A stretch of 39,987 nt of DNA from a virus. Below the pieces are notes generated by a model. The model saw only the letters and a list, made by a program, of their open reading frames with translations. It was not told the DNA's origin and ran no database searches. The stretch covers positions 1 to 39,987 of the IMG/VR virus record IMGVR_UViG_3300028800_000185. One strand, written 5' to 3'. Made by a program: the position numbers and the translations under genes. Positions 6,680 to 28,877 of the stretch are shown in pieces; position 1 is the first letter of the stretch, and every line of letters starts with the position of its first letter.

Positions 6680-7003
6680 ATGCTTGCTAAAATTGTACGC
6701 GGTCAATTATACTTAGGTACGTGGCAACTATCTCAGATCGTTGGGTTTGAACACCGACGATTAACCAGACTGATAGAGTCCATAAAAGACGTATTACCTG
6801 GTTTAATAACAGATAAGTGCGTAACAGGTTCCGCAGGGCCAAGACCCAAAGAATACCTCTTACACGACGATAATTTACGCCTAGTCGTATCAATGATGCC
6901 AGGGACGAGGTTTAACTTGTGGGTCAAGAAGGTTGCTTTAGAGCAGGAATGCTTGATCCAGTTTTTGAATGAGAACGAGAGTAATATGAAGAGGAAGGAA
7001 TAA
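6680..7003 (+). CDS. Small putative DNA-binding or regulatory protein
   Basis: A 107-residue protein that starts after a strong GGAGG site at 6670-6674. The N-terminal part, LGTWQLSQIVGFEHRRLTRL, has the spacing of a helix-turn-helix and recalls the DNA-binding half of Rha/Ant-type phage regulators, though I cannot confirm the family. The centre, GPRPKEYLLHDDNLRLVVSM, looks like a short beta-wing. It leads the plus-strand array, and its stop overlaps the next start at 7003. A role as local regulator is inferred. Confidence 0.55.
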   Translation: MLAKIVRGQLYLGTWQLSQIVGFEHRRLTRLIESIKDVLPGLITDKCVTGSAGPRPKEYLLHDDNLRLVVSMMPGTRFNLWVKKVALEQECLIQFLNENESNMKRKE

Positions 7004-7314
7004 TGGACTGGACGCAAGTTTCAACAATATTTGGACCGAATATGGAAATTATTCAAATTGGCGCTGCGTTATTTGCCTTCATAGCTTTAATTTGGGCGAT
7101 CAGAAGTCCATTTAAAGCAGACATTAATGCTCTACGCTCAGAGATGCATTCTGATATCAATTCTCTCAGGACAGATACTCTTTCCTTGATTAATTCAATG
7201 AGAGCAGAGAATCTTGCATTTCAAACCGAGGTCCGTGGGTGGAAAGAAGAAATGCATAAAGAATCAAAGGATTTTCACGGAAGGCTTTGTGCTATAGAAA
7301 GGGAGAGGAAATAA
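7003..7314 (+). CDS. Small membrane protein with coiled coil, copy A of MDWTQ family
   Basis: A 103-residue protein: a short N-terminus (MDWTQVSTIFGPN), one hydrophobic segment at about residues 17-34 (IIQIGAALFAFIALIW), then a long heptad-like helix and a conserved tail (KDFHGRLCAIERERK). It is the first of five copies or remnants in 7003-9226. The first 45 nucleotides are identical to the start of copy B, which marks a recent duplication. Its stop and the next start overlap as TAATG. The anchor-plus-coil plan fits an inner-membrane lysis accessory or superinfection factor, but no family is recognised. Confidence 0.65.
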   Translation: MDWTQVSTIFGPNMEIIQIGAALFAFIALIWAIRSPFKADINALRSEMHSDINSLRTDTLSLINSMRAENLAFQTEVRGWKEEMHKESKDFHGRLCAIERERK

Positions 7315-7604
7315 TGGACTGGACGCAAGTTTCAACAATATTTGGACCGAATATGGAAGGACTGCAATTTGGTGCAACTCTTGTAGCTATTTTAGCGCTA
7401 ATTTGGACCATTCGTGGTGTAAACAAATCAGATATAAATTCTTTGCGCTCCGAAGTTCGTGGGGATCTTAATACATTAAGATCTGAGATTCATTCTGATT
7501 CTTTAGCTCTTAAAACTGAATTAAGAGGTTGGAGGGAGGATTTGCATAAAGAATCAAAGGATTTTCACGGAAGGCTTTGTGCTATAGAAAGGGAGAGGAA
7601 ATAA
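7314..7604 (+). CDS. Small membrane protein with coiled coil, copy B
   Basis: A 96-residue protein from the ATG at 7314; an upstream in-frame ATG at 7287 lies inside copy A and lacks its own ribosome site. Same plan as copy A: MDWTQVSTIFGPN, a hydrophobic helix (LQFGATLVAILALIW), a charged coil (SDINSLRSEVRGDLNTLRSE) and the tail KDFHGRLCAIERERK. The ends are nearly identical to copy A at DNA level while the middle has diverged, which suggests gene conversion or selection on both ends. Confidence 0.65.
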   Translation: MDWTQVSTIFGPNMEGLQFGATLVAILALIWTIRGVNKSDINSLRSEVRGDLNTLRSEIHSDSLALKTELRGWREDLHKESKDFHGRLCAIERERK

Positions 7605-7792
7605 TGGATTGGACTCAAGTTTTAGCGATAGTAGGATCAAATCTACTATTCAGTGTTACTCTATTCTTTTGGAATAGATCTGAATCAAGATCAGATATAA
7701 GAATGATGCTAGCCATGATAGACGGGATTCAGAAAGAGATGAAAGACTTTCACGGAAAACTTTGCGCTATTGAAGAAAGGGGGAGGAAGTGA
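7604..7792 (+). CDS. Small membrane protein, copy C (short coil)
   Basis: A 62-residue protein starting at the ATG at 7604, which overlaps the stop of copy B. It keeps the MDWTQV start, a hydrophobic segment (IVGSNLLFSVTLFFW) and the tail MKDFHGKLCAIEERGRK, but the coil is much shorter than in copies A and B. The stop overlaps the GTG of the next small gene at 7789. Length variation of the coil between copies is the main difference within this family. Confidence 0.62.
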   Translation: MDWTQVLAIVGSNLLFSVTLFFWNRSESRSDIRMMLAMIDGIQKEMKDFHGKLCAIEERGRK

Positions 7793-20487: not shown

Positions 20488-21403
20488 CGAATTGTTACTC
20501 CTCTTGCGAGGGGACCAGTCATTTCTGCTGATCTCTCATGCTTTCGTCATGAGACCCGACTATCGCTTTACACGAACCTTCCGGAAACCCCAGAAAGTTG
20601 TTTTTATTTCGTGTATCCAACCGCTTTAGTCTGTCACGGTGGACTTAAATACACTTCAGGTGTATACTAGTTGGTGAACCTGTACAAAAGGAGTACCATG
20701 GTGTTCAACAACATCGACCATAAACATAGAATCAAATACGTTCCTAAACAACACGATCCACTTCATCTTGCATATCTTGCTGGTATTGTTGATGGAGAGG
20801 GATGTTTTCATGCTTGTAAGCTTAAAAACAAACCCAATGATGGCTATAAAAACGGCCACTATAGGTGTGTTTTGAAGGTTTCCAATACTGACATCCGTCT
20901 CTTTCATTGGCTTCAAGACACGTTTAGCGGCACATGTTCTGCTGCCTTTAAAGAAACCAGAGATAAACTCTTTAAAAGAGACTGCTATGAATGGGTGGTT
21001 ACGGGACATAGACTTCTCGACTTGTGTCGTCAAATCTTGCCCTATCTTATTATTAAAAAACGTCATTGCGAGCTTGTCATTAAGTTTAGAGAATCCTTTC
21101 CCATGCATTTGGGCAGAGGAAATCGTGAAATCACTCCCGAAGAACAAGTTCTTAGAGAAGATTGCATTTCTGAGATCAAGAAACTTAATGCTAGAGTTCG
21201 CTCTATTCCACATTGTAAAGTCCTTTAAGTCCTTCCGCCTTGTTTCCATGCCACCCTTTGGGGTGGTTTAGGGGTCCAAGTCAATTAGGTCAGATTTATA
21301 CAAGACCAATATAATAAAAAATCTTGTAAAATAACTTGTTCGTTAATTACGCAACCAGTCTTTCGTAATTATAGTTATTAAATTCGGCACTGTTAATTTC
21401 ACA
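20488..21403 (-). mobile_element. Group I intron 3 of the capsid gene, 916 nt, with antisense homing gene
   Basis: Read on the minus strand. The upstream exon end TTCGGT pairs with GCCGAA about 18 nt inside the intron, giving P1 with the required U-G at the splice site. Core parts are visible: the P element AATTGACTTGG near 21275-21285, R at 20621-20642 (CACCGTGACAGACTA), S at 20553-20570 with TAGTC to close P7, and an extended P8 (ACACGAA/TTCGTGT). The 3' end is AGTAACAATTCG. Splicing here joins GGT to CAA with no frame change. The LAGLIDADG gene lies on the opposite strand between the P and R elements. Confidence 0.78.
20698..21228 (+). CDS. LAGLIDADG homing endonuclease, antisense inside intron 3
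   Basis: A 176-residue protein from ATG at 20698, chosen because AAAGGAG precedes it by four bases; an in-frame TTG at 20671 has no such site. One LAGLIDADG motif is present (LAYLAGIVDGEGCF, about residues 24-37), so it would act as a homodimer that cuts intron-less capsid alleles. Later parts (VSNTDIRLFHWLQDTF, KRDCYEWVVTGHRLLDLCRQ) fit the family fold. It is transcribed opposite to the capsid gene, so it cannot be made from the late transcript and needs a plus-strand promoter. Confidence 0.82.
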   Translation: MVFNNIDHKHRIKYVPKQHDPLHLAYLAGIVDGEGCFHACKLKNKPNDGYKNGHYRCVLKVSNTDIRLFHWLQDTFSGTCSAAFKETRDKLFKRDCYEWVVTGHRLLDLCRQILPYLIIKKRHCELVIKFRESFPMHLGRGNREITPEEQVLREDCISEIKKLNARVRSIPHCKVL

Positions 21404-22074: not shown

Positions 22075-22211
22075 CCCGTGGTCGTAATACTCATGGACTA
22101 ATTCCTTTGTAGTATTATTCCTGATATGATATACTAAACCGTAGGCGATACGTGTTACGCCTGTTCTTAGTACATTAGAATGGAAGTTGCGAAATCTTCC
22201 TACGCATTTGC

Positions 22212-22228
22212 CTTGACGCCGACAAGCG
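22212..22228. repeat. 17-bp repeat upstream of the capsid gene
   Basis: The bases CTTGACGCCGACAAGCG at 22212-22228 recur exactly at 23809-23825, just upstream of the scaffold gene. The element contains the inverted pair CTTG/CAAG around a 7-base centre, so it could fold in RNA or bind a protein. Here it lies 118 bases upstream of the capsid ATG at 22094. Confidence 0.6.
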
Positions 22229-22257
22229 AAATTTCAATATATCATAAAAAGGATTTT

Positions 22258-22893
22258 ATGGAACTAATCGATAAAAGATTTGGCAAATGGACAGTTCTTT
22301 CTTATGAGGGAAGAGGCCCCACTAGGGCCTTTTTATACAAAGTTAAATGCGACTGTGGCAAAGAATCTATCACTGACAAAATAGCCTTAACTAGAGGAAA
22401 AAGCACTCAATGTCGTTCATGTGCCAGAAAGATCAGCACCTCTGGATCTAAAAATCCTTCTCATAAACACGGTTATTCTTCTATTTCTCATCCATATTTC
22501 AGAGTATATACAGCGTGGTGTACCATGAAAAGTCGTTGCTATCGCCAAAAGGATAAGAACTTTCAAAGATATGGGGCCGTAGGAATAAAGGTTTGTGATG
22601 AATGGTTAGAAAGTTTTGAAAGATTTCTTCTTGATATGGGGCACCCGCCAGAAAATCATACTTTGGATAGAATTAATGTTTATGGAAACTATTGCAAAGA
22701 AAATTGCAGATGGGCTAATCAGGAAACCCAGAGCAACAATTGTAGAAGAACTATTTACTATGAACACAAAGAAGAAAAACTCTCTGAAACTCAATGGTCC
22801 AGAAAACTAGGAATAACTAGAAATAAGACTATGTACTGGGCCCGAAAAAAAGGGATTCAATGGGTAATAGACAACCTTGAAACACTTAAATAA
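22258..22893 (+). CDS. Homing-type endonuclease (HNH-like), free-standing
   Basis: A 211-residue protein from ATG at 22258, placed after AAGGA by four bases; the longer frame from 22180 lies over the capsid upstream region and has no ribosome site. Residues 31-55 carry a zinc-ribbon-like pair (CDCG...CRSC). The core, YFRVYTAWCTMKSRCY, then RYGAVGIKVCDEWLESFERF and LDRINVYGNYCKENCRWANQ, is a common phage homing-endonuclease domain usually annotated as HNH. It lies between the small gene after scaffold and the capsid gene, on the opposite strand, with no intron core around it. Confidence 0.72.
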   Translation: MELIDKRFGKWTVLSYEGRGPTRAFLYKVKCDCGKESITDKIALTRGKSTQCRSCARKISTSGSKNPSHKHGYSSISHPYFRVYTAWCTMKSRCYRQKDKNFQRYGAVGIKVCDEWLESFERFLLDMGHPPENHTLDRINVYGNYCKENCRWANQETQSNNCRRTIYYEHKEEKLSETQWSRKLGITRNKTMYWARKKGIQWVIDNLETLK

Positions 22894-25048: not shown

Positions 25049-25657
25049 CTATGAACAAGCATTGTTATTTAAGTTCATTATAACACTGTGCCCATATTCT
25101 TCAAGGAATTCTTTGCACCATTTGACTTTGTCTTCTACACGTTGACCATATGGATGAGAATTAGACCAAAGCTCTAGGTTTTCTATAGTATTATCGTGTC
25201 TAATGCCGTTTTTATGGTGAACCGTTTCTCCTTTTCGTAGAGGTCTTCCTAAATGTTCGGACATAACAAAAACATGCTCAAAAATACCTCCTGTTCTCCA
25301 AGCATTCGGATGCCCTTTTTTGAATATTTGTTTATATCCATGCTTAGTTATAGTTCCGCTCCCTTTGGGACCACACCTCAAATCAGCATCAGATTCAATA
25401 CCATGTTTATTTCTATATCTTTGTTTTTCAGCTAAACTATGTTTAAGTCTATCCCTACGCCTTCCGGTTTTTAAAATTCTCGCTTTTTCATACTCATTTT
25501 TCTTTTTGCGAAGATCCGGATTCGCATTAAACTGGTCTAATTTTCTTTTTTGTGCCGCCTTACGAAGACAAATTCGAGAACACCACTTTGAATGAGAAAC
25601 GGGGGGTTTAAATTCTTTTAAACACCAAGGACATGTATACATATATACAGTATACAA
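25049..25657 (-). CDS. HNH homing endonuclease, free-standing
   Basis: Up to 202 residues; the ATG at 25642 (MYTCPWCLKEF) is an equally good start, as neither has a clear ribosome site. The N-terminus has a zinc-finger pair (CPWC...CSRIC). A basic helical linker follows. The HNH core is at the C-terminal third: FEHVFVMSEHLGRPLRKGE, then VHHKNGIRHDNTIENLELW with the His-His and Asn-Asn spacing of the family. It is placed between the small lipoprotein gene and small head genes. Base composition is more AT-rich than its neighbours, as expected for an acquired gene. Confidence 0.8.
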   Translation of the reverse strand: MYTVYMYTCPWCLKEFKPPVSHSKWCSRICLRKAAQKRKLDQFNANPDLRKKKNEYEKARILKTGRRRDRLKHSLAEKQRYRNKHGIESDADLRCGPKGSGTITKHGYKQIFKKGHPNAWRTGGIFEHVFVMSEHLGRPLRKGETVHHKNGIRHDNTIENLELWSNSHPYGQRVEDKVKWCKEFLEEYGHSVIMNLNNNACS

Positions 25658-25829: not shown

Positions 25830-27827
25830 CTACATTCCTTCGGGCTGTCCGCCCATTGGTTGTTGTTGACCACCCATTTGACCCAGAATCTCAGAGACAA
25901 ACTTATTCCCTTCAGCGGTCCTCTTAACTTCTCTCTTATCGTCATCTTCTTGCATATCAGTCATATAATCGTACGACTGTATCTGAGAAGCCGCAAGAGC
26001 CGTCTCTACCTCGCCGAACTTAGCAATGACTTCAACCATTTTTTCAATAGCCTCCATCTTAGCTTTAGTAGATAACGCCTTGTTCTTCTGAACCTCGGAG
26101 ATTCTTTCTTCAAACAAACCGATGTTGCTTTCATTTCTTCCATGTCTCTCACGGGCATTTGCTAAATTATTCATTGCTTTAGTATACATTTCTTTGAGTT
26201 TCGCTTCTTCAAAGGCATGTTGTACAGCCTGCATCTCTTGTTGTTGAGCGGCTTGCTGTTCACGCTGCTGCTTCAAGATCTCCATAAGCTCAGTTTTGCC
26301 CTGGATAGTCGCTTGAGAAGCAATGTAATCAGCAGGAATTATGCCACCAAGAATCTGGTTTAGCTCAAGAATCTGTTGGAAATGCTGTTGCTTTTGATTA
26401 GCTGTTAGTAGACCCTCTTCAACGATAGTTTGAAACTTAGAGAACACCTTAGAATAGAAGAAAGGCGTCGGCTCTTCGCCGATCATCAGCTTAACCTTCT
26501 CACCATTCCAGTTGTACTGAATAATCTGTAACAATCTTTCTCCAAGAAGCTTTAAAGATAGATCCCACTGATCAAAATACTTCTGGAGTACCATTAGATT
26601 CGCAGCTTGCTTAAGCATAACTGTCAGAGATGATGCTTGAGTGTTGTCTTGGGCCGACCACGTCTCTAAATTTACCCCAGAAGTAGAAAAGATAAGGGAC
26701 TGTAGCTGATCAGCAAGAGCCATATCAGACTCAGGAACAGCAGAAGGCATGATCTTCTCAACGTCCGTAAGCTCATAGCCTTCGTTAACGATTACATCCC
26801 ACCCTTGACCGGATTTCTTAAGGTTATCTTCATTGGCCACTGCACCGACTTTTCGCTTCCAGCCTGCATTGATCGTAGCTTCACTTATATCGTGGTTCAA
26901 AATTATGCGGCGATTTAGAAGGTAATTCGAGTCGCGCATAGTGCGCACCAATCCGCGGCAACGTAGATCATAGTAATTAATATGCGGTTCATAGTTCCAA
27001 AACACAGGTATAAATGGACAATCATCAAAACCTAGGGGGTTATCCCCGAGATACATTAGCTGATCATTAAGAACAGTAGCAAGTTTCCAACAAGGAACCT
27101 CTACTTCAACAACTTCGAAGTCACGAACATTATAAAGAATCGTCTCAAGATGTTCTTCACCACCTGTAAAATCGAAGAATTGATTACGTGATTTGCTGTA
27201 GAGTCTTTTCTTCTTCTTCTTCCATTTGTACCACACATAAGACAAGACCATTAAGTCGTTACGGGCCATGTTGTAGTTCTCAGGAAGGAAATAAAACGAT
27301 CCATAGCGTTGGGGCGTACCAGCCATCGGAGCAATCTTGTCGAACTTATCAGGGAAACGGAACTCGGCTTCTTTTTTAGAAATATATTCTTGACACCATA
27401 CGAATTGTGCGTCTGACATCGAACTATCACGGAAATAGGGGTCCACGAGAAATGAGGAGTATTCCCATACTTTTAATTTTAATGATCCTTGTGCTTGATC
27501 ATCCCCGTTATAGTCTAGGTAGGGTTGGAGTAGAACCATCCCAGTTATGCATGCTTGTTCGCATGCTCGTGAGAATTGCTCATGAATGCCTTCGGTATTG
27601 CATACATGCGTCATGATGCGCGTGTATTGATCAGTAGTTTGCGGGTCACCCCCTTCAGCAGGAATGTAGTTGATTTGCTTACGATGTTGGCGTTGATAAC
27701 CAGTCACCATATTGACAGGCTGTTGGAGCAGATTAAAGTAAAACTGCTGCTGGCTCGAGGATTGGTTGATCCCGAAGTAGCGGTTGATGAAGGTCTGCGA
27801 GCCTGCATAGAACAATGTGTCGATGTT
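25830..27827 (-). CDS. Portal protein, exon 2
   Basis: Exon 2 codes for 665 residues: NIDTLFYAGSQTFINRYFG at the start, then GYQRQHRKQINYIPAEGG, DPYFRDSSMSDAQFVWCQEY and GLVRTMRDSNYLLNRRIILN, which is the P22-like portal pattern. The C-terminal 150 residues form a Gln/Glu-rich coil (EILKQQREQQAAQQQEMQA) like the P22 barrel, ending in a Gly/Gln tail. Joined to exon 1 (28119-28187) the product is 688 residues, close to the P22-like size. Read unspliced, the frame would begin at a GTG at 27828-27830 that belongs to the intron end. Confidence 0.85.
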   Translation of the reverse strand, partial: NIDTLFYAGSQTFINRYFGINQSSSQQQFYFNLLQQPVNMVTGYQRQHRKQINYIPAEGGDPQTTDQYTRIMTHVCNTEGIHEQFSRACEQACITGMVLLQPYLDYNGDDQAQGSLKLKVWEYSSFLVDPYFRDSSMSDAQFVWCQEYISKKEAEFRFPDKFDKIAPMAGTPQRYGSFYFLPENYNMARNDLMVLSYVWYKWKKKKKRLYSKSRNQFFDFTGGEEHLETILYNVRDFEVVEVEVPCWKLATVLNDQLMYLGDNPLGFDDCPFIPVFWNYEPHINYYDLRCRGLVRTMRDSNYLLNRRIILNHDISEATINAGWKRKVGAVANEDNLKKSGQGWDVIVNEGYELTDVEKIMPSAVPESDMALADQLQSLIFSTSGVNLETWSAQDNTQASSLTVMLKQAANLMVLQKYFDQWDLSLKLLGERLLQIIQYNWNGEKVKLMIGEEPTPFFYSKVFSKFQTIVEEGLLTANQKQQHFQQILELNQILGGIIPADYIASQATIQGKTELMEILKQQREQQAAQQQEMQAVQHAFEEAKLKEMYTKAMNNLANARERHGRNESNIGLFEERISEVQKNKALSTKAKMEAIEKMVEVIAKFGEVETALAASQIQSYDYMTDMQEDDDKREVKRTAEGNKFVSEILGQMGGQQQPMGGQPEGM

Positions 27828-28118
27828 CACCCTGTTACTTAATGACTTACGTTTCCATAAGCGGGGTTCCCTCTTCGGAGATCCCTCTCTATGTTACCAT
27901 AGAGTTCAGACTGTCGCTTAGCCTTTCGGCTCCCTCTCACTCAGTCGTTCACGGTGCTTGCGCTTCCGCCTTGTCTTCCCATTGGGAGGTCCAAGTCAAT
28001 CAGAGAAGGTTTAACCAGAGCAATATGACTAACTCTGGTTCCATCGGCTTTGTTCTATAGGCTGAAACTTACTATAGAGATTGTCGCTTTTTTTCCGATG
28101 GAAAGTGACCCGACGTTA
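27828..28118 (-). ncRNA. Group I intron in the portal gene, 291 nt, no ORF
   Basis: P1 pairs the exon end AGTGGCTT with GGGTCACT, with U-G at the splice point. Long P2-type hairpins follow (TTCCATCGG/CCGATGGAA; CCAGAG/CTCTGG). The core is GATTGACTTGGACCTCC (P), CCGTGAACGACTGAGTG (R, 27938-27954) and GCGACAGTCTGAAC (S, 27905-27918), so P7 is GACTG/CAGTC. P8 is AGCC-GAAA-GGCT. The end is AGTAACAGGGTG, matching the capsid introns. Both flanking exons end and begin on full codons (TGG CTT | AAC ATC). Confidence 0.85.
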
Positions 28119-28187
28119 AAGCCACTGTCTTACATTTACTTGATTCGGCTCAAGAGAATTTTGCCATGGTGGATAGTAGAAACTCAA
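28119..28187 (-). CDS. Portal protein, exon 1
   Basis: 23 codons from TTG at 28187: MSFYYPPWQNSLEPN then QVNVRQWL, placed five bases after a strong GGAGG site (28193-28197 on the opposite strand as CCTCC). It is too short for gene finders, and would stop two codons into the intron (TAA) if unspliced. A short N-terminal exon like this is easy to miss and leaves the portal annotated with a false start. Confidence 0.72.
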
Positions 28188-28253: not shown

Positions 28254-28877
28254 TCAACTATTTCTTTTTTTAGCCCCTAATTTACCACCACAAGACTGAG
28301 AACAACACTTCGTTCTACTTGTTTTATCTTTAATAAACGATATTCCACACCAAGCACAGGTTGCCGTCACATCATAAAATCCATTTTTTCTATTCCAAGC
28401 TTTTTCACATCTAGCGCTACAAAATTTTGACCACGACTGACTCGTTTCTACTTCTTTTCCACAGTTTTGACAAATTATTATAGTTTTTTTTCTATTTTTC
28501 CACCCTTCTATAGCGTCTTTCCGTTGTCTTTCTCTTCCTTCTTTTGTTCTTAAATGAACATGCACCATTGGACGAATAGCATCTAATTGTTTTCTACGTT
28601 CTTTTCTTAATTCAGGGTCTTTCCAATGTTCCTTCAAATGATCGGAACGATTAAGCATTTGTAAATTTTCTATTTCATTATTGGATTTATCTCCATCTTT
28701 ATGATGGATATCCATGCCCTTGGGTATTGCACCATAATGATTTATCCACACCCATCGATGAGCATGAATAGGCATTATATTTGCCCAATATCCGTCTTTT
28801 TGCTTATAGAATCTTTTACCAAAATATATACGACGTTCTTTTTCCCCTTCTTCCATCCCCTCATTATACCAACCCAC
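28254..28877 (-). CDS. HNH homing endonuclease, free-standing
   Basis: Up to 207 residues from GTG at 28877; ATG at 28856 is an alternative and neither has a convincing ribosome site. The HNH core is N-terminal: AHRWVWINHYGAIPKGMDIH, then HKDGDKSNNEIENLQML. The C-terminal half carries zinc-finger-like pairs (CQNCGKEV...CSARC, CAWCGISF...CCSQSCG), probably for DNA recognition. It lies directly upstream of portal exon 1, 66 bases from the portal start, outside the intron. It may nonetheless be the mobility partner of the ORF-less portal intron. Confidence 0.8.
   Translation of the reverse strand: MGWYNEGMEEGEKERRIYFGKRFYKQKDGYWANIMPIHAHRWVWINHYGAIPKGMDIHHKDGDKSNNEIENLQMLNRSDHLKEHWKDPELRKERRKQLDAIRPMVHVHLRTKEGRERQRKDAIEGWKNRKKTIIICQNCGKEVETSQSWSKFCSARCEKAWNRKNGFYDVTATCAWCGISFIKDKTSRTKCCSQSCGGKLGAKKRNS

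Follow-up and report, generated by a model that had tools for sequence, protein, structure and literature searches.

Coreless mini-introns upstream of complete group I introns in phage portal and capsid genes, and their predicted dependence on the neighbouring ribozyme

Group I introns are generally regarded as self-contained, and the canonical introns of phages (T4, Twort, Bastillevirinae) each possess a core of their own. The closest natural precedent for the elements considered here is provided by the small introns of Phialophora SSU rRNA (Harris & Rogers), which are 63-75 nt in length with a reported P7 and a terminal U (PMC3160393); these introns are very short and combine a U.G P1 and a P10 with a pairing between the intron middle and the 3' exon ('PM'). 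Engineered trans-excision-splicing ribozymes and spliceozymes, which remove segments of up to 28 nt and of about 100 nt, respectively (PMC4094466), also use one group I core on a short separate segment under the guidance of P1 and P10. In addition, skipping of a tiny exon enclosed by tandem group I introns is known from Twort orf142, the Coxiella 23S gene and SIOphi (PMC10136302, PMC11878797).

The window, i.e. the whole stretch of DNA analysed here, belongs to a virus record with a length of 39,987 bases, and its portal gene is interrupted by a 33-nt mini-intron, a short exon and a complete group I intron of 204 nt. The 204-nt intron is similar to the canonical phage introns in its U.G P1, P3-P9 core, P7 and terminal G, whereas the mini-intron has no core. 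The 24 mini-introns identified in this work share with the Phialophora introns a P1, a P10 and base pairing between the middle of the intron and the 3' exon, but they end in G rather than U in all 24 cases; furthermore, the Phialophora introns reside in fungal rRNA with no neighbouring ribozyme reported as catalyst, whereas the phage mini-introns interrupt protein genes and are always found beside a complete intron. The segments removed by the engineered ribozymes bracket the mini-introns in length, but those systems are artificial and bimolecular, whereas the mini-intron is natural, is predicted to be excised in cis, and has its guide inside the excised piece together with a tether helix. In the exon-skipping tandems two introns likewise flank a very short exon, but there each intron has its own core and splicing removes the exon, whereas in the portal gene of the window the upstream intron is coreless and the middle exon, being under purifying selection, is predicted to be kept. 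The group III introns of Euglena are group II-derived, non-autonomous and short, with a core that was lost and is supplied elsewhere; they differ from the mini-introns in their group II lineage, organellar location and use of trans-acting factors. A search of the open-access literature found no description of a coreless intron in nature that is adapted to a group I ribozyme next to it.

The split portal gene of the window

The portal gene is located on the minus strand and has three exons at its 5' end separated by two intervening sequences. Exon 1 (28120-28187, 68 nt or 22 2/3 codons) reads MSFYYPPWQNSLEPNQVNVRQW followed by CT, and matches intronless relatives codon for codon. It begins at a TTG codon (28187-28185) located 5 nt after a GGAGG ribosome-binding site (28197-28193), as was already read from the sequence in the initial annotation, which had assigned 23 codons to this exon. 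The mini-intron (28087-28119, 33 nt) reads TTAACG...AAAAAAAG, contains an in-frame TAA, has no catalytic core and ends in G; its boundaries are either 28119-28087 or shifted one base later, with identical coding in both cases. Exon 2 (28032-28086), a mini-exon of 55 nt, supplies the end of the leucine codon and DNLYSKFQPIEQSRWNQS, and it is followed by the complete ORF-less group I intron of 204 nt (27828-28031), which also has a terminal G. Exon 3 (25830-27827) encodes the bulk of a P22-like portal protein, in an open frame extending from NIDTLF to the stop at 25830. This long ORF matches PF16510 at E 6e-56, as well as phrog_156, and has as neighbours an ORF for the terminase large subunit and ORFs for HNH endonucleases; within the collection of known phages the portal had only remote matches. 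When the 33 nt and the 204 nt are taken out, a continuous portal of 706 aa is obtained with all conserved residues in frame.

An ORF-less group I intron ending at 27828 had been recognised previously, and the apparent GTG start of the long frame (27830-27828) had been correctly identified as an artefact formed by the last three bases of that intron. Its length, however, is 204 nt instead of the proposed 291 nt, as the single intron placed between VRQWL and NIDTLF merges the 33-nt mini-intron, the conserved 55-nt exon and the 204-nt intron. Intronless relatives, which form the majority of those fetched, are continuous over this region (...NVRQWL-DNLYSKFQPIEQ[S/A]RWNQS-NIDTLF...), and the same 18 codons are intact in the window at 28085-28032, within the claimed intron. 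Comparison of these codons (DNLYSKFQPIEQSRWNQS) in 102 relatives with the window revealed nearly invariant residues, with 911 synonymous and 83 nonsynonymous codon differences, and exon 2 is therefore coding sequence. The single 291-nt intron was rejected, as it would swallow 18 conserved codons, and the diagnostic peptide suggested for it, RQWLNIDTLF, corresponds to an exon-skipped product lacking 18 residues found in essentially all relatives; the peptide to be expected from splicing of two introns would be RQWLDNLYSKFQPIEQSRWNQSNIDTLF. The earlier suggestion that head assembly could be coupled to ribozyme folding or cell state gains no support from these comparisons. The N-terminal piece of the two-intron product matches phrog_156 from profile position 10 (88.0 bits), that of the 291-nt splice from position 27 (85.2 bits) and the GTG product from position 34 (83.4 bits), although the differences are small.

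Three pairings account for most of the mini-intron (all on the minus strand). The P1-like pairing (28104-28126) joins the exon end AGUGGCU (28126-28120) to the internal guide sequence (IGS) GGUCACU (28110-28104), with a U.G at the 5' splice site; the P10-like pairing (28083-28114) joins GUCG (28114-28111) to CGAC of the 3' exon (28086-28083); and the tether helix H (28039-28103) joins UUCCAUCGG of the mini-intron (28103-28095) to CCGAUGGAA of the exon (28047-28039), abutting the P1 of the next intron. The 33-nt element thus has the U.G P1, the P10 and the terminal G of a group I intron. The strands of P10, P1 and H use everything except a run of A residues, leaving no P3-P8 core, and therefore the element is not classed as an autonomous group I intron. 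No match was found when the exact 33-nt sequence was searched in viral contigs, so that the comparisons below are based on analogous rather than identical inserts.

In the 204-nt intron, P1 is formed by 28038-28032 and 28021-28015, P3 by 28009-28003 and 27938-27932, and P7 by 27946-27942 and 27913-27909. Thirty introns of the same family (190-230 nt) can be aligned with conserved core motifs, and in all of them the 5' exon ends in U opposite G. In this alignment P3 comprises 7 bp, with 98% pairing and 2-5 different pair types at each position, the strands of P7 are conserved with a final pair varying between A-U, G-C and U-A, and P4, P5, P6, P8 and P9 are supported as well, giving a P3-P8 core with the P3/P7 pseudoknot; a terminal G is found at the 3' splice site of the 204-nt intron. 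Neither at gathering nor at permissive thresholds up to E = 10 did Rfam provide a group I match for the 204-nt intron, and likewise the 30 family introns had no Rfam match even at E 10. The missing match is put down to limitations of the model, not of the evidence for the core, and as these introns are group I by covariation, surveys using that model would miss them. Judged by the covariation in its family, the 204-nt element is a real group I intron that is predicted to be self-splicing. Partial matches to the intron core were detected in Desulfovibrio phage 7757 and podovirus ctn9Y15.

Immediately ahead of the portal gene there is a free-standing HNH endonuclease ORF of the HNH_3 type (28254-28877, minus strand), which is a possible homing partner, and a second free-standing HNH_3 ORF (25049-25657, minus strand) is located shortly after the gene. 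Homologs of the upstream ORF precede the portal gene in three intron-bearing relatives (L051, L043, L049) but also in some intronless loci, which makes this ORF a weakly informative marker of intron-bearing portals. Elsewhere in the window, at 7003-7792 on the plus strand, three tandem small ORFs repeat MDWTQV... and share a common C-terminus (KDFHGRLCAIERERK), representing a local gene duplication.

Recurrence of mini-introns and their linkage to complete introns

Portal relatives were taken from IMG/VR and GTDB contigs, and spliced protein-to-DNA alignments were made for 123 distinct loci, 107 of which were scored as reliable portals; very divergent loci with alignment scores under about 400, which gave meaningless introns, were discarded, as were edge artefacts. 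The arrangement of a small insert, a short exon and a complete intron of about 200 nt was identified in 9 of the 107 scored loci, and in one gene (L043) it occurs twice. When this search was applied to the well-aligned rest of the portal gene and to the terminase gene, no such insert was found.

The capsid gene of the window is likewise split, as had been noted before, by three full group I introns and a second mini-intron. The latter (21360-21403, minus strand, 44 nt, at FFG|TG) has a P1 of UUCGGU with GCCGAA and a P10 of CAGU with ACUG; spliced alignment places a 39-nt mini-exon (21321-21359) after it, and its partner is an 833-nt group I intron (20488-21320, minus strand). A LAGLIDADG ORF (20671-21228) is encoded inside the 833-nt intron on the plus strand, opposite to the capsid gene. 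The two other complete introns of the minus strand (22030-21808, 223 nt; 21776-21575, 202 nt) are separated by a 31-nt exon, and just upstream of the gene lies an antisense HNH ORF (22180-22893, plus strand). At the start of the capsid gene (22094-22030, minus strand) two extra bases (22073-22072) are present between GGT and AAC, in MSITTTG|NLGPM; the reading may be frameshifted here, the gene may start with TTG at NLGP, or the sequence may be in error.

The capsid gene of a second phage family has the same arrangement at a homologous site, F[FY]G|T, and within the collection of known phages this capsid has matches of only 22-27%. In total, 24 mini-introns of 29-65 nt were identified at six gene sites in the portal and capsid genes of two phage families, and as several of their lengths are not multiples of three, simple read-through is impossible. 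Among the cultured phages, no mini-intron was found; spliced alignment of the capsid was unsuccessful in Desulfovibrio phage 7757 and podovirus ctn9Y15.

A T|..G boundary is among the best-scoring placements in 24 of 24 mini-introns, with 3.0 expected by chance. In each of them the end of the upstream exon pairs over 6-9 bp with an internal guide ending in U.G, and in nearly all of them the bases just 5' of the guide form a P10-like pairing with the first bases of the downstream exon, although in L177 the P10 is missing at the strict position. The mini-intron guide pairs with its own 3' splice site over a mean of 4.6 bp at the strict position, versus 0.5 bp with the distal site (p = 2e-5). Against dinucleotide shuffles, P1 and P10 together have a combined p of about 5e-32, a value that serves as a guide only, given that the cases share sites and ancestry; for the pairing of mini-intron and exon the corresponding value is about 8e-21, from cases that are not fully independent. 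In none of the 24 is any sequence left for a catalytic core. Taken together, these comparisons provide strong evidence that the mini-introns are real.

Every one of the 24 mini-introns is followed by a complete group I intron at a distance of 26-96 nt. Among the scored portal loci, 9 have both mini-introns and full introns, 6 have full introns only, none has a mini-intron only, and 92 have neither (Fisher 1.4e-9), although some of the six full-only loci may be alignment artefacts. Among the capsid loci, every mini-intron likewise has a complete intron no more than 120 nt downstream of it; the loci of the second family were fetched via the intron pattern, and thus their linkage is biased by sampling. 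It could also be that the linkage partly reflects co-transfer by homing instead of dependence.

The pairing partner of the mini-intron tail follows the neighbouring intron. The tail pairs with the short exon directly 5' of the P1 of the neighbour, wherever the neighbour is situated, and tether helix H begins 0-4 nt after the mini-intron's own P1. When the whole mini-exon is considered, the best stem is the one beside P1 in 21 of 24 cases, mostly at a distance of 0-1 nt. At one capsid site with partner introns at aa97, 99, 102 or 121, the tail of the insert changes to suit the partner, and among loci sharing the same pair of sites compensatory changes were observed in 2, 2 and 3 pairs of H (three groups). 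Unconstrained folding of the 5' part recovers the P1 of the mini-intron in 22, H in 23 and P1 of the neighbour in 23 of the 24 cases. H is weaker in several capsid cases, i.e. the window itself (WIN), L007 and L037 (p 0.05-0.13, rank 2-3), where another stem is stronger, and for one portal locus (L044) the minimum-energy fold pairs other segments. At the level of sequence comparison it is thereby shown that the intervening sequences exist, where they begin and end, how they pair, and that they recur in linkage with a complete intron.

Two further observations concern the portal sites. At the site P|IEQ, the insert is a complete intron of 199 nt in L051 but a mini-intron of 55 nt in L034 and L043, a difference that looks as if mini-introns come from loss of the core. 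Six loci (L009, L032, L046, L067, L330, L353) have another kind of insert, 47-51 nt in length, at codon 37 of the portal gene (R|W); it forms a perfect hairpin of 17-18 bp right after a CGG codon, usually contains an early in-frame stop, and resumes at CGA or CGG (AGA in L353) ahead of TGG, with no complete intron nearby. In L032 the insert is 47 nt long and breaks the frame. The codon 37 insert is similar to the translational bypass element of T4 gene 60, in which the gap is 50 nt.

Proposed excision by the neighbouring core and alternative explanations

The pairings suggest that the 33-nt element is probably a non-autonomous intron of group I type that is tethered to the ribozyme of its neighbour and excised by it, so that the two introns of the portal mRNA would share a single catalytic core. 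The mini-intron would bring its own substrate pairings, namely the P1-like helix with its U.G, the P10-like helix aligning the 3' splice site, and the terminal G, while its remaining segment would act as the tether by pairing with the exon sequence that borders the P1 of the next intron on its 5' side. The P1 of the mini-intron, H and the P1 of the complete intron would then form a tight three-way junction, putting the former P1 where the core of the complete intron can use it instead of its own, with H serving as its P2 helix. We infer that excision takes place at the RNA level, with the neighbour's core as catalyst and the mini-intron leaving first; loss of the tether would free the P1 region, whereupon the complete intron would splice itself and yield the mRNA for the 706-aa portal. 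The core's own 3' splice site could compete in the first step and cause exon skipping, as in Twort orf142.

Several other explanations of the locus have been considered. A single 291-nt intron extending from CTT|TAA to GTG|AAC, with the 55-nt segment intronic and a portal without the 18 residues, has both junctions at codon borders and an in-frame product, and in principle the mini-intron's P1 and the neighbour's core could take the distal 3' splice site, as group I introns are known to skip exons in Twort orf142 and SIOphi (PMC11878797, PMC10136302). The strong purifying selection on the 18 codons and the pairing of the mini-intron guide with the proximal rather than the distal 3' splice site nevertheless render this explanation very improbable, and skipping with a U|..G boundary would disrupt the reading frame in 17 of the 24 cases, among them the portal of the window. 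For a translational bypass of the 33 nt by hopping ribosomes, of the kind known from T4 gene 60, one may point to the stop codon right after the upstream codon, to the similar gap lengths of bypass elements and to the other insert class of the portal gene that does resemble such an element; yet the take-off codon CTT is not matched by the AGC before the resume point, and bypassing leaves the U|..G boundaries, the P1 and P10 pairings and the linkage to group I introns unexplained. Given the lack of matched codons and the strong group I pairings, bypassing of the 33 nt was rejected as scarcely credible. It is equally hard to believe that the insert is a decayed remnant or an assembly error in a dead gene copy: the window derives from a single metagenomic virus record, and two surplus bases of unexplained origin lie early in its capsid gene, but 24 comparable cases come from separate assemblies with exons under purifying selection.

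With a single intron, ribosome bypassing and decay all being unlikely, the proposed excision by the attached neighbour has to be weighed against unaided splicing and action in trans. The mini-intron might splice by itself and merely be located near a complete intron, in the manner of the 63-75-nt Phialophora rRNA introns, in which P1 and P10 are accompanied by a helix between the intron middle and the 3' exon; splicing in vitro was seen for one of them (PMC3160393). This is rather unlikely, as the phage elements, with lengths down to 29 nt, are shorter and end in G, are confined to the region just ahead of a complete group I intron, and have an exon pairing that tracks the neighbour's P1. Removal in trans, by a freed copy of the same intron, by another phage group I intron or with the help of a protein, would be in line with the several related cores present in the genome (the capsid introns) and with the ability of engineered group I ribozymes to excise short segments in trans via P1 and P10 (PMC4094466). 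However, the tether ends exactly at the P1 of the nearest downstream intron, which makes sense only while that intron is still attached, and loci whose full introns lie only elsewhere in the gene have no mini-introns; there is little to recommend this explanation either.

Excision by the attached neighbour, if extended to all cases, points to a natural class of satellite introns, which seems reasonably likely: coreless introns of group I type, about 30-65 nt in length, that contain guides only and are removed by the next downstream ribozyme. As gene callers and Rfam miss both mini-introns and mini-exons, essential genes of phages seem truncated or broken in metagenomic data. If the satellite class is true, one catalytic RNA would serve two introns of one transcript, and the guides of the satellite would be those for its own two splice sites and for docking to its neighbour. 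Such introns would represent a natural counterpart of the engineered spliceozyme, and they would provide a group I parallel to the division into core and substrate introns that has been proposed for the origin of the spliceosome from group II introns.
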